Source: an uncultured Pelagibacteraceae bacterium | Lineage (GTDB): Bacteria; Pseudomonadota; Alphaproteobacteria; Pelagibacterales; Pelagibacteraceae | DNA: 64,000 bases | NCBI GenBank assembly: GCA_902585415.1 | Contig: CACIDN010000001.1 | Span: 46,001 to 110,000 of the forward strand | Reading direction: 5' to 3' | Part shown: positions 19,950 to 24,960 of the stretch, in pieces | Numbering within the stretch: position 1 is the stretch's first letter | Layout: every line of letters starts with the position of its first letter | Program-made: the position numbers and the translations under genes | Notes under the pieces: generated by a model | Told to the model about the DNA's origin: nothing | The model's input: the letters and a program-made list of their open reading frames with translations, nothing else | Databases searched by the model: none

Positions 19950-20979
19950 AAATATATTAAAGTCAATAAGATCAGAAGGTTTTAAGTATATTAATCTAGA
20001 TACAGTAATACAAACTAATCACATTGTTGAAAGATCTGGCGAATCATTTAGACGTTTCATTTTTTCTTTTAACGATCAGAAAGGTAATGAAATTTGTCTT
20101 AGACCAGACTTAACAATTGCATCATGCTTAAAATATTTACATGAGAAAAATAAAGTAGCCAAAAAAGTATTTTACAGTGGACAAGCTTTTAGAAAAACTC
20201 AAAAATTATCAGATAATATAATAAGAAATCAAATTGGTTTTGAAATTATTGGCTCAAACAAGGAAAAGTATGATGATAAAAAAATTATCAATACAGCTGT
20301 TAAATCATTATCGAAATTAAAATTTTCATCGGGTGTTTTGACCATTGGAAATATCGAAATATTTAAACTTCTATTGACTAAATTGGATATCCCTAAAAGA
20401 TGGAGATTGAGACTCCAAAGACATTTTTGGAGAGAAAAATATTTTAACGATTTATTAAAAAGACTAGAGACTAATTCTGACGTTGATCCAACTATTGTTG
20501 AAATAGATAAAAAAAAATATGAGGTAATGCTTAAACAAAAACAATCAAAAATTATTGCGGGGAGATCACTAAATGAGATTCTAAAGAGATTTAACGATAA
20601 AATAAATGATCCAAGAAGGCCTCGAAAAGGTAAAAATGTTGTAAAAATAATCAAAGAATTTCTAAAAATAGATTGTCCAATCAGTGAAGCATTTAAGAAA
20701 TTAAACCTTTTTTTTAAAAAATATAAAATTAATTTAAGAGTAGAAAAAAATTATTTTCCAATCTCTAAAAATAAATTTTCAAGATTAAATATAAAATATT
20801 CAGCTTCTTTTGGAAGGCAATTAGAATATTACACAGGTTTAGTCTTCAAAATTGATATTAAAATCAATTCAAATAAGATTAACATTATTAATGGTGGGAG
20901 ATACGATAACCTTATTAGCGATCTTGGATCGAATAAAAAAATACCAGCAGTTGGAGCAGCTATAAATTTAAATGATTAA
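19912..20979 (+). CDS. hisZ: ATP phosphoribosyltransferase regulatory subunit (HisS-like)
   Basis: 355 residues from ATG 19912; a second ATG at 19927 (MKSKKLSENIL) is equally possible. HisRS-like catalytic-domain fold without an anticodon domain: FIFSFNDQKGNEICLRPDLTIASC near residue 50, and FGRQLEYYTGLVFKIDI plus GGRYDNLISDLG near the end. It is needed to activate the short form of HisG, which follows with an 8 bp overlap. The hisS-hisZ-hisG order is characteristic of alphaproteobacteria. Confidence 0.9.
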   Translation: MRTWSMKSKKLSENILKSIRSEGFKYINLDTVIQTNHIVERSGESFRRFIFSFNDQKGNEICLRPDLTIASCLKYLHEKNKVAKKVFYSGQAFRKTQKLSDNIIRNQIGFEIIGSNKEKYDDKKIINTAVKSLSKLKFSSGVLTIGNIEIFKLLLTKLDIPKRWRLRLQRHFWREKYFNDLLKRLETNSDVDPTIVEIDKKKYEVMLKQKQSKIIAGRSLNEILKRFNDKINDPRRPRKGKNVVKIIKEFLKIDCPISEAFKKLNLFFKKYKINLRVEKNYFPISKNKFSRLNIKYSASFGRQLEYYTGLVFKIDIKINSNKINIINGGRYDNLISDLGSNKKIPAVGAAINLND

Positions 20980-21655
20980 TATCGGAATTCCCAGCAAAGG
21001 TAGATTAAGAAAAGATATATTGAAAATTTTTTCAAAAAATAGTTTACAACTTATATCTGAAAGAGGAGAAAGAGACTTGTTAGGGTCTGTCAAAGGATAT
21101 AAAAAAATAAACATTACTTATTTACACGCAAGAGAAATCGTTGAAAGATTAGGGGACGGAACTTTGGATATTGGTTTTTCAGGGTTTGATTTATTAAAAG
21201 AAAGTGCAATTAATGTGCAAAAAAAAATAGTAGTAAAACAAAAATATACTTTCGGTAAAGCCAATTTAGTAATTGCTATTCCCGATGATTGGATTGATGT
21301 TCAAACAATAGCTGATTTGGAAGAAATCGCATTTGAATTCAAAGAAAAAAAAAAAACTAGATTAAGAGTAGCAACAAAGTATCCAAATTTAACAACAAAT
21401 TTTATGTTTGAAAGAGGTGTTACACAATTTAAAATTGTAAAAAGTCTAGGTGCAACAGAAATATATCCATTCACAGGTTCTTCAGAAATTATAACGGATA
21501 TAACTTCTACAGGTGAAACTTTAAGAGCTAATAATTTAAGAATATTAAAAGACGGAGTGATGCTTAAATCTCAAGCATGTTTAATGATTTCCCAAAAAAG
21601 TCAAAAAAAGAGAGGTATTTTTAATATTATAAATAAACTTAATAAAATTGTATAG
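20972..21655 (+). CDS. hisG: ATP phosphoribosyltransferase, short form
   Basis: 227 residues, lacking the C-terminal regulatory domain, so it needs HisZ. Motifs: IGIPSKGRLRKDIL at the start, GDGTLDIGFSGFDLL near residue 65, ATKYPNLTTNFM near 135, and the PRPP loop ATEIYPFTGSSEIITDITSTGETL near 162. It couples ATP and PRPP in the first step of histidine synthesis. Confidence 0.95.
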   Translation: MINIGIPSKGRLRKDILKIFSKNSLQLISERGERDLLGSVKGYKKINITYLHAREIVERLGDGTLDIGFSGFDLLKESAINVQKKIVVKQKYTFGKANLVIAIPDDWIDVQTIADLEEIAFEFKEKKKTRLRVATKYPNLTTNFMFERGVTQFKIVKSLGATEIYPFTGSSEIITDITSTGETLRANNLRILKDGVMLKSQACLMISQKSQKKRGIFNIINKLNKIV

Positions 21656-21662
21656 TGTGAGC

Positions 21663-22712
21663 ATGGATTCGTTAATTATAATTTTAATTATTATCTTGCT
21701 TCTAGCTAACTTCTTAGCATTTGCACTTCTAATTAAGCGTAAACAACCTGAGCCAGTTAACAATGAACAAATTTTTAAAGACGAATTAAGTTCTTTAAAA
21801 AATACATTTAGCCTGTCTTTTGGGTCTATGAGCAAAGAAATAGCAAAAGATATGACCGGAGCTCTGACAAAAGTTGATGAAAAAGTATCAGTTTTTAATC
21901 AACAAGTAAGCGAGTTAAACAAAAGTCAAGATAACTTTAGTAGAATTTTGAGTGGAGTAAAATCATATGGAACTCTTGCGGAATTCGGATTAGGTGCACT
22001 TCTAAAAGATTTGTTACCAGCATCTCAATATATCGCAAATGCAAAAATGAAAGAGGATACTTCAGAAACAGTAGAGTTCGCTATTAAACTTCAAGATGTG
22101 ATGTTGCCAATTGATAGTCACTGGCCTGTTGAAAAATATAAAGCAATTGATGATGCATATAACGCCAATGACAAAGATGCACAAGCAGAGGCAAGGAAAG
22201 ATTTAGCATCAGCTTTTAGGTTAAAAGCTAAAACTGTTAACGCAAAATATATATCACCTCCAAAAAGTACAGATTTTGCAATTGTTTACGTTCCTACTGA
22301 GGGATTATTCTCAGAACTCTCTAGTTATAGAGACCCTAAAACTAAAGAGCTACTTTTACAGGAATTAAGAACTAAATATAAAGTTACAATTTCTGGCCCT
22401 AATACTTTATCTGCTTTATTACAATCCTATCATTTAGGATTTCAAACACTTAAAGTTCAGCAACATGCTACACAAATTTATGGTGATTTAAGAAATATAA
22501 GCTCAAGATTCGAAAAACATTTTGATGGAATAAAAGAACTTAGAAAAAAATTGGAACAAGCCATGCAAGTTACTGATAGTTTTGGAAGAGATGCAAGATC
22601 TATAATGAATACACTTAGGAATATTAAACATCCCGAACAAGTTGAAATAGTATCAAAAAATGAGAATGTTGAAAAATTAAATATACCAACCTCAAAACAA
22701 GCTAAAAATTAA
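21663..22712 (+). CDS. rmuC: DNA recombination protein RmuC
   Basis: 349 residues from ATG 21663 (the ORF track begins at a TTG 15 bp earlier). An N-terminal membrane anchor (LIIILIIILLLANFLAFALL) is followed by a coiled-coil to about residue 100. The RmuC domain then shows GTLAEFGLGALLKDLLPASQY, VMLPIDSHWPVEKY, FAIVYVPTEGLFSEL and TISGPNTLSALLQSYHLGF, the last three being diagnostic. RmuC limits inversion and rearrangement at short repeats. It opens a run of three DNA-processing genes. Confidence 0.92.
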   Translation: MDSLIIILIIILLLANFLAFALLIKRKQPEPVNNEQIFKDELSSLKNTFSLSFGSMSKEIAKDMTGALTKVDEKVSVFNQQVSELNKSQDNFSRILSGVKSYGTLAEFGLGALLKDLLPASQYIANAKMKEDTSETVEFAIKLQDVMLPIDSHWPVEKYKAIDDAYNANDKDAQAEARKDLASAFRLKAKTVNAKYISPPKSTDFAIVYVPTEGLFSELSSYRDPKTKELLLQELRTKYKVTISGPNTLSALLQSYHLGFQTLKVQQHATQIYGDLRNISSRFEKHFDGIKELRKKLEQAMQVTDSFGRDARSIMNTLRNIKHPEQVEIVSKNENVEKLNIPTSKQAKN

Positions 22713-22747: not shown

Positions 22748-23431
22748 ATGAAGTGGAACACCAAATTTGTCTATCCAAAATCAACAAGATCTTTGGTAAA
22801 AGGTTCAAGACATTATTTTTTAGATGGATCAAGTTTACCCTCAGTTACAACAATTTTATCAGCTACTAAAAGTGAAGAAGACAAAGCAGCAATTCTTGCC
22901 TGGAAACAAAGAGTAGGCAATGTTGAAGCAGAAAGAATTAAGAAAGAGGCCTCAGCTAGAGGTAGTTCAATGCACTCTTATCTAGAGCAGTTTTTATACG
23001 GAAAATTAAATCAAGAATTATTAGAAGACAACAATAAATCTAAAAAAATGGCAGAAGAAATTATTGATAATGGATTAAAAAATAAATTGCTAGAGATATG
23101 GGGTTCAGAAGCTACAATATATTATCCTGGTAAATACGCAGGTACTGCAGATTGTATAGGAGTTTATGAAGGCAAAGAATCAATTCTAGATTTTAAACAA
23201 AGCAATAAACCAAAAAAAGAGGAATATATAGAAGATTACTTTTTACAAATTGGAGCTTATTCTTTAGCTCATAATATTGTTTATAATTCTAATATTACCC
23301 AAGGCGTAATTTTATTATGTACTGTAGACAGGTTATTTCAAGATTTTAAAATTGAAGGTAATGAACTAATTAATTTTCAAAACAAATTTCTTGAGAGAGT
23401 TGAAAAATTTTATCACTTAATTAATAAATAA
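22748..23431 (+). CDS. PD-(D/E)XK nuclease, MGME1-like single-strand exonuclease
   Basis: 227 residues from ATG 22748. Motifs in order: LPSVTTILSATKSEEDKAAI near residue 30, RGSSMHSYLEQFL (GxxxH motif) near 76, KYAGTADCIGVYEGKESILDFKQSNKPK (Asp, then the D-x-K core) near 135-160, and DYFLQIGAYSLAHN (Q-x-x-x-Y) near 168. This order is that of the mitochondrial exonuclease MGME1 and its phage and bacterial relatives in the PD-(D/E)XK superfamily. It lies between rmuC and exonuclease I, suggesting a role in processing single-strand ends. Family level is solid, function inferred. Confidence 0.7.
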   Translation: MKWNTKFVYPKSTRSLVKGSRHYFLDGSSLPSVTTILSATKSEEDKAAILAWKQRVGNVEAERIKKEASARGSSMHSYLEQFLYGKLNQELLEDNNKSKKMAEEIIDNGLKNKLLEIWGSEATIYYPGKYAGTADCIGVYEGKESILDFKQSNKPKKEEYIEDYFLQIGAYSLAHNIVYNSNITQGVILLCTVDRLFQDFKIEGNELINFQNKFLERVEKFYHLINK

Positions 23432-23529
23432 TTATTTGACTTTACTTAAAATTAATATACTAAAAACTTACTTGCTACTTGTTTAGATGCGAGCCTTCAC
23501 ACCTTCCAAATAGCATTTATTTATAAATT
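23432..23529. other. Short spacer before the exonuclease I gene
   Basis: 98 bp with a TTGACT close to its 5' end (about 23436) and a GC-richer patch (GCGAGCCTTCACACCTTCC, about 23489-23507) that stands out in this AT-rich sequence. I cannot assign it. Confidence 0.4.
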
Positions 23530-24960
23530 ATGAACATTGTAATTTGGGATATAGAATCTTCAAGCTCAAGCACAGACTTTGGAAGTATTATTGAAATTGG
23601 TGGGATTTTAGTAGATGAAAACTTAATAGAAAAAGAGAGATTTAATTTAAGATGTAGACTTCCAGAAGGAGAAATTCCCCAATGTATGGCTCTTCTTGTA
23701 AACAAAACTGATGTTAACATGCTAACAAAAGCAAATCTAAGTCATTACCAAATGTTATCTCAAGTTGAAATGATTTTTAAAAAGTGGAGCCCTGCTATAT
23801 TCTTAGGCTGGTCCAATATAGGCTTTGACGATGAAATGATAAGAAAAGAGTTTTTCAAAGGCTTAAGATATCCATACATCACGAATTCTTCCCCTAACAA
23901 AAGACACGATGGGTTAAATATTGCTCGTGGTGCTTTTGCTTTGGATAACAAAATACTAAAAACTGAGACAAATATTAAAGGGAATGCTGTAATGAAGTTA
24001 GAGTCTTTAGCTAGGATGAACGGTTTTGAGACTAAAGGGGCTCATAGCGCATTATTTGATGCAGAACTTACACATAAAGTTTTAGGACTAATAAAGAATA
24101 AACAACAAGATACATGGGACAATTTTTTAAAGACCTCAAATAAGCTTGATACAGAGACGATGATAAAAAAAGAAAAAATTATTACACTTAACGAGTACTT
24201 TTATGGAAAATCAAGACTTTATCTTTGTGCTCCTCTTCATCCAAAATTTTGTATTCATCCAATATACCAATGGGGCCAGGCTGTCGACTTAAGAGTTGAT
24301 GTAGAACCTCTCCTGAAAATGTCTATCAATGAATTAAAATCTGAGATGAAAAAAACACCAAAATTTTTAAGGACTATTAGATCAAATAAAGCACCAATAA
24401 TAATAGGTAAAGAATATGGTATGAAAGTTGAGCCCTATAGCGCTATGGATATCTCTTTAATTAATAAAAGAGCAGAATTAGTAAATACTAATGAAAAATT
24501 TTCTGAGAATATCTTAACTGCGTTAAGAGAAATTGCTGAGGAAAAAGAGCAATCAAAATCTCAAGAAGATATAGAGCCAGAAGAAAGTATTTATGTAAAA
24601 TTTACCCCAAACAAAGACACAAATCTATTTCAAAAATGGCACGAAGCAGCATGGAACGATAAATTAAGATTACTAGATAAATTCGAGGATCAAAGAATGG
24701 TGGGATTTGGAAAAAAAATAATATTTCAAGAAGCCCCTCATGTATTACCTGAGTCTATGTTAAAAAAAATTAAGATAAAAATTGCAAAACGAATATTAAG
24801 TGAAAAAAAGGAAAAATGGTGGACTTGTAAGGAGTTCTACCACGAATGCGATAACCTTAGGGACAAATTTACTAATGAGTCTAACGAGGAAAGTTTAAAA
24901 TTTTTGGATCAACTTAATAATTATGTGATGTCAATTGAAAAAAAATATAAAAATGTTTAA
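23530..24960 (+). CDS. sbcB: Exodeoxyribonuclease I
   Basis: 476 residues. DEDDh exonuclease domain: motif I VIWDIESSSSSTDFGSIIEIG (E. coli has HDYET), motif II GWSNIGFDDEMIRKEFF, motif III GAHSALFDAELTHKVLGL with the catalytic His. The C-terminal part, from about residue 200, has the ExoI-type SH3-like and helical extension (YLCAPLHPKFCIHPIYQWG). It degrades single-stranded DNA 3' to 5' in recombination and mismatch repair. Follows the MGME1-like nuclease. Confidence 0.88.
   Translation: MNIVIWDIESSSSSTDFGSIIEIGGILVDENLIEKERFNLRCRLPEGEIPQCMALLVNKTDVNMLTKANLSHYQMLSQVEMIFKKWSPAIFLGWSNIGFDDEMIRKEFFKGLRYPYITNSSPNKRHDGLNIARGAFALDNKILKTETNIKGNAVMKLESLARMNGFETKGAHSALFDAELTHKVLGLIKNKQQDTWDNFLKTSNKLDTETMIKKEKIITLNEYFYGKSRLYLCAPLHPKFCIHPIYQWGQAVDLRVDVEPLLKMSINELKSEMKKTPKFLRTIRSNKAPIIIGKEYGMKVEPYSAMDISLINKRAELVNTNEKFSENILTALREIAEEKEQSKSQEDIEPEESIYVKFTPNKDTNLFQKWHEAAWNDKLRLLDKFEDQRMVGFGKKIIFQEAPHVLPESMLKKIKIKIAKRILSEKKEKWWTCKEFYHECDNLRDKFTNESNEESLKFLDQLNNYVMSIEKKYKNV

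Follow-up and report, generated by a model that had tools for sequence, protein, structure and literature searches.

A 227-residue nuclease encoded between rmuC and sbcB in Pelagibacter is a fixed chromosomal gene of one genus of SAR11 and its nearest solved relative, as judged by sequence and predicted fold, is human MGME1. It is a domesticated phage exonuclease, and while the MGME1-like family to which it belongs was already known the chromosomal member is new. The explanation that we favor, and consider likely as a whole, is that a phage gene was captured a single time into an rmuC-sbcB-trx neighborhood and kept as a host gene, the product serving as an MGME1-like exonuclease of single-stranded DNA (ssDNA) together with exonuclease I (ExoI) and RmuC and perhaps covering for exonuclease VII (ExoVII). 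SAR11 bacteria, including Pelagibacter, are the most abundant in the ocean, and the gene illustrates cleanly how an enzyme with which phages process DNA has settled for good in the chromosome of a bacterium that is both streamlined and ecologically dominant.

The window, that is the whole stretch of 64,000 nucleotides that was analyzed, comprises positions 46001-110000 of contig C1 from a SAR11 genome (G000) of 1.04 Mb that is 82% complete. The features of interest are listed below.

20972..21655, + strand: hisG, left-hand limit of the conserved neighborhood
21648..22712, + strand: ORF of rmuC (RmuC family; Pfam RmuC E 1.8e-45), directly 5' of the nuclease gene
22748..23431, + strand: MGME1-like PD-(D/E)XK (RecB/Cas4-type) nuclease gene, ATG start, 227 aa
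23432..23529, + strand: nuclease-sbcB intergenic leader, with a promoter-like start and a near-invariant 17-mer
23436-23461, + strand: promoter-like TTGACT-N14-TATACT
23474-23490, + strand: 17-mer core GCTACTTGTTTAGATGC
23530..24960, + strand: sbcB, exonuclease I (DEDD 3'-5' ssDNA exonuclease), 476 aa
25027..25344, + strand: thioredoxin gene (trx), right-hand limit of the conserved neighborhood

The initial annotation had placed a 227-residue PD-(D/E)XK nuclease between rmuC and sbcB on one strand and this is confirmed by the ORFs at 21648-22712, 22748-23431 and 23530-24960, which are separated by 35 nt (rmuC to nuclease) and by 98 nt (nuclease to sbcB, 23432..23529). An in-frame TTG lies one codon 5' of the nuclease ATG, and the real ATG of rmuC is probably at 21663. 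Membership of the sbcB product in the ExoI family follows from Pfam RNase_T and Exonuc_X-T_C matches above cut-off (E 2.5e-15 for Exonuc_X-T_C); the match to NCBIfam exodeoxyribonuclease I (PRK11779, E 3.7e-36) is nevertheless under the NCBIfam equivalog cut-off of 260 bits.

When the PDB was searched with the nuclease as a single sequence MGME1 was found with E 1.2e-9 and no other entry was close; with a 59-row profile the MGME1 match covers ∼196 positions with E 2.9e-28, the second entry being at 0.36. An AlphaFold model, obtained from a 41-row alignment with pLDDT 95.7 and pTM 0.90, was compared with the PDB using Foldseek and the nine best matches were all MGME1 (TM 0.74/0.84, E 3e-12), with a DinG protein, RecE and Cas4-like proteins as runners-up far behind. 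The predicted helices 43-56 and 58-83 form the counterpart of the MGME1 arch, and W52 aligns with arch Trp152. The 41-row alignment shows no variation at H76, E121, D135, D148, K150, Q167 or Y171, and the catalytic residues do not vary across 59 sequences either; Q167/Y171 make up motif IV. The first five residues named align with H180, E223, D238, D251 and K253 of MGME1, for which metal binding or active-site importance has been described (PMC6237815). The MGME1-like character proposed at the outset is thus borne out in motifs and fold by the five active-site residues, the profile match and the Foldseek comparison. A full-length profile match is also obtained to PHROG 298 (exonuclease; E 6.7e-49, residues 12-222). 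Pfam PDDEXK_1 remains below threshold for the nuclease (18.9 bits against 22), and a search of the window's own genome with this family gave no match. Identity as Cas4 was considered and rejected, since TIGR00372 gives 15.6 bits versus a cut-off of 65 and there is no cysteine in the conserved columns, hence no conserved cysteine cluster.

Of 248 genomes of the family that were surveyed, the nuclease is present in 135 of the 146 that belong to the genus of the window (g1) and in one genome of another genus. Eleven g1 genomes are without it: four have no detected sbcB or folC, in two the sequence stops at the locus or close to it, and the remaining five are assembled across the locus but do not contain the gene, so that the nuclease is not essential. 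In all of the 135 loci examined nuclease and sbcB occur together, and 55 long loci preserve the complete order hisS-hisZ-hisG-rmuC-nuc-sbcB-trx-folC-accD-trpA. A divergent, second-type rmuC (rmuC-B) lies between nuclease and sbcB in ten loci (gap 1.1 kb), and in three divergent genomes (L168-L170) the pair is arranged tail to tail. Other SAR11 genera (L179, L180, L183, L184, L187) carry rmuC-sbcB-trx beside folC-accD-trpA but no nuclease and sbcB is widespread, occurring in 231 of the 248 family genomes and in all ten sampled genera, which argues that the repair neighborhood is the older and that the nuclease entered it later. The suggestion that the rmuC/nuclease/sbcB neighborhood is kept therefore holds, and with it the idea of a DNA-end processing set is supported. 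The nuclease-sbcB adjacency may stem from plain vertical inheritance and is not by itself proof of a functional complex.

Median pairwise dN/dS values are 0.093 for the nuclease, 0.096 for hisG, 0.122 for rmuC and 0.038 for sbcB, and the nuclease is under purifying selection, like hisG. Taken with the catalytic residues, which do not vary in 59 sequences, and with the constant position of the gene, the low dN/dS puts its conservation well past what chance would give. These values bear on whether the gene is a phage or prophage remnant devoid of host function, as its overwhelmingly viral relatives might suggest. Such an explanation is extremely improbable, in that selection and synteny already contradict it: the gene has a fixed position in one genus, intact frames and a dN/dS of 0.09, and within the window the hisG-trx interval holds no other phage genes.

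Relatives of the nuclease are found in 972 of 50,697 phage records and on at least 593 viral contigs, the phages in question infecting cyanobacteria, enterics, Pseudomonas, Agrobacterium and Vibrio; a plasmid search returned two remote cyanobacterial matches. Among 387 alphaproteobacterial genomes full matches outside SAR11 are confined to two contigs of one genome, one further match being partial and weak, and 398 genomes drawn from the phylum (Pseudomonadota) gave no further nuclease match. The two contigs belong to a draft genome (G570; L162, L163) and contain nearly collinear stretches in which the nuclease is accompanied by a tail fibre with Mtd_N and a ribonucleotide reductase. Because of these adjoining genes the contigs are phage-like, and the stretches are probably phage contigs that were binned with the genome.

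In a tree of 75 rows (IQ-TREE), 23 of them cellular and 51 viral, the cellular rows form one clade with support of 100/87. The larger clade that encloses it (99/99) is mixed and has 53 rows, 30 of them viral, and more phages branch outside of that. The nearest viral relatives adjoin terminase small-subunit genes, an arrangement like that in pelagiphage HTVC027P and phage 023Pt_psg01, and the donor was probably a relative of pelagiphages. Since the cellular clade is nested in viral rows and the gene is nearly missing from other Alphaproteobacteria and Pseudomonadota while being common in phages, the sequences argue that the ancestor of the genus acquired it from a phage, once and long ago. Transfer in the opposite direction, in which phages acquired the gene from the Pelagibacter genus, would agree with the cellular rows making up one side of one branch, and an unrooted tree alone leaves direction unset; we consider it very unlikely because the viral relatives have widely differing hosts, show greater diversity than the cellular rows and branch around these stepwise. 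The phage-to-host direction is a strong inference and not proof, as the root of the tree rests on long-branched outgroups. A search for phage-borne sbcB gave one weak match only, in a 2.2-kb record, and there is accordingly no sign that nuclease and sbcB moved jointly from phages. Phage origin, at first raised as a mere possibility, is now the best reading. The initial annotation had set nesting within phage proteins, combined with no conserved location, against its proposal; the nesting is found whereas the location is conserved, pointing to a gene that was captured from a phage and has since become fixed in the host.

The same surveys speak to a mitochondrial connection, for which a link between Alphaproteobacteria and mitochondria had been invoked. 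That part of the initial annotation is not supported, in view of what the 387 alphaproteobacterial genomes yield outside SAR11, namely the phage-like contig pair in one genome and a weak partial match. Given this near-absence, vertical descent from a mitochondrial ancestor is without support, and descent in the mitochondrial lineage likewise found no backing in the class (387) and phylum (398) surveys taken together. An ancient alphaproteobacterial gene that was the direct bacterial ancestor of mitochondrial MGME1 would fit the fold and residues, and in an AU test the grouping of MGME1 with the cellular clade was not rejected (p 0.17). With the cellular clade nested in phages, and no copy of the gene in other SAR11 genera or elsewhere in the samples of class and phylum, we attach next to no probability to this scenario. 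Enzymes of the MGME1 type belong in the main to phages, a distribution relevant to the source of the mitochondrial enzyme.

Returning to capture from a phage, the sequence of events and the function that we envisage are as follows. The ancestor of genus g1 (Pelagibacter/Pelagibacteraceae) would have captured a PHROG 298/MGME1-like exonuclease gene once, the gene being placed in the pre-existing rmuC-sbcB-trx neighborhood and then retained. The product would be a metal-dependent exonuclease acting on free ssDNA ends, with the strand threaded beneath the helical arch as in MGME1, and would probably degrade from both 5' and 3' ends; according to PMC11551736 MGME1 itself is bidirectional as an exonuclease of ssDNA. 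Together with ExoI (3'-5' on ssDNA) and RmuC it would remove ssDNA tails or flaps that arise from repair, recombination or phage attack, and it may do the job of ExoVII, which is missing from the nuclease-bearing genomes. The most likely function, on this analysis, is that of an exonuclease that depends on metal, degrades ssDNA, probably in both directions, and works alongside RmuC and ExoI. The gene, its predicted fold and catalytic residues, the selection on it, its synteny, its nesting in phages and the missing xseA are shown by the data; ssDNA specificity, polarity, the ExoI/RmuC partnership and replacement of ExoVII are all properties that we infer.

ExoVII is itself a bidirectional ssDNA exonuclease. 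Its xseA gene is present in none of the 136 nuclease-bearing genomes and in 15 genomes of four other genera, all without the nuclease, a correlation that is suggestive of replacement and not proof of it and that carries no statistical weight because the capture was one event. Genera g5, g6 and g7 are without ExoVII and, bar one genome, without the nuclease as well, so that loss of ExoVII does not on its own call for the nuclease and its displacement is offered here as a hypothesis and not as a result. In the family survey (genomes G000-G300) xseA is missing from most of the SAR11 family and kept in four genera only. RecJ, present in 12 of 15 genomes checked, was rejected as the enzyme that the nuclease generally replaces: 9 genomes with the nuclease were checked and 6 of them have RecJ as well. 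Three complete genomes from the genus of the window gave no RecJ match. Among the papers searched none ties RmuC and exonucleases, or ExoVII, to Pelagibacter. The nuclease offers a testable reason for the nuclease-bearing genomes doing without ExoVII.

The hisG-trx interval is an insertion hotspot for defence-like genes (L165, L168-L170, L173, L176-L178, L186) and the neighborhood swaps between two RmuC types. In divergent members the interval contains DrmB, a methyl-directed REase, MzaC/Z1, RNase_H_2-helicase fusions and a second RmuC, and for this reason a primary role in anti-phage defence, with the enzyme taken from phages directed against the DNA of incoming ones, stays a live rival. DrmB and the methyl-directed REase are found beside nuc-sbcB in L165, MzaC/Z1 in L170 and an MkoA-like helicase with RmuC in L176, and the gene does derive from phage. 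Most genomes, however, hold just rmuC-nuc-sbcB-trx in the interval, selection and synteny resemble those of housekeeping genes, and the sole PADLOC match of the nuclease is a weak one to Cas4, leaving a mainly defensive role unlikely.

The nuclease-sbcB gap contains an element of its own. The spacer of TTGACT-N14-TATACT is shorter than that of a standard sigma-70 promoter and a consensus scan did not flag it. The core GCTACTTGTTTAGATGC is found with ≤3 mismatches in most loci having a gap of ∼100-130 nt and is missing where nuclease and sbcB almost touch; in loci with an intervening rmuC-B it precedes rmuC-B-sbcB, and in L185, which comes from another genus and has no nuclease, it precedes rmuC-sbcB. 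Tandem duplicates occur in L021/L186, L165 and L166, and in a complete genome of 1.34 Mb (G012) the core is present at the sbcB locus only, as a tandem pair. The leader is tied to the rmuC/sbcB unit and not to the nuclease. One subgroup retains a hairpin in which the core pairs with a complement on its 3' side, and a few of the changes there are compensatory; an Rfam search of the leader gave no match. The leader is a candidate for an RNA that regulates the (rmuC-)sbcB unit in cis. The fuller proposal, that the phage-derived MGME1-like enzyme displaced ExoVII as bidirectional ssDNA exonuclease and that the sbcB unit is under a new class of structured leader, is put forward tentatively, being in our estimate less probable than its negation by a clear measure. 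If true, displacement of ExoVII would parallel mitochondria, whose replication genes include phage-like parts.

A separate observation concerns sbcB, whose reading frame is broken by an insert in two Pelagibacter genomes, at one shared codon immediately 5' of the catalytic FDD motif (L071:7089-7134, L164:7114-7160). The insert, of 46-47 nt, is an out-of-frame GC-rich hairpin with a compensatory stem change. Relatives of L071 with 98-99% identical SbcB are without it, the sequence on either side of it shares just 73% identity between the two carriers, and no other copy was found in 238 family genomes or in viral contigs. Possible identities are a mobile element, a bypass-like one or one removed in some other way.

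Among known systems MGME1 (Ddk1/C20orf72, mitochondrial genome maintenance exonuclease 1; PDB 5zyt-5zyw, 8xa9) has in common with the nuclease the predicted fold, the five catalytic residues, the arch tryptophan and the lack of an Fe-S cysteine cluster. The nuclease gives a bacterial model of MGME1. It differs in that identity is 22-25%, there is no mitochondrial leader region, the gene is bacterial and chromosomal in a repair neighborhood, and the activity is predicted. PHROG 298 phage exonucleases, including those of pelagiphages HTVC027P/HTVC023P, phage 023Pt_psg01, T4-like cyanophages and jumbo phages, are homologous over the full length, proteins of uncultured marine phages being up to ∼59% identical to members of the cellular clade. 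Unlike these phage genes the Pelagibacter nuclease is chromosomal, with a fixed position and one genus-wide cellular clade; that of the window is not phage-encoded, lying between hisG/rmuC and sbcB/trx with core genes as flanks, and the family is shared by descent. The nuclease domains of Cas4, RecB and AddB belong to the same PD-(D/E)XK superfamily and have the H, D, DxK and QxxxY motifs in common with the nuclease, but the matches are much weaker (TIGR00372 E 0.011; Foldseek E ∼1e-5 or worse). To ExoVII (XseA/XseB), finally, the likeness is in the proposed role only, the protein family being unrelated.
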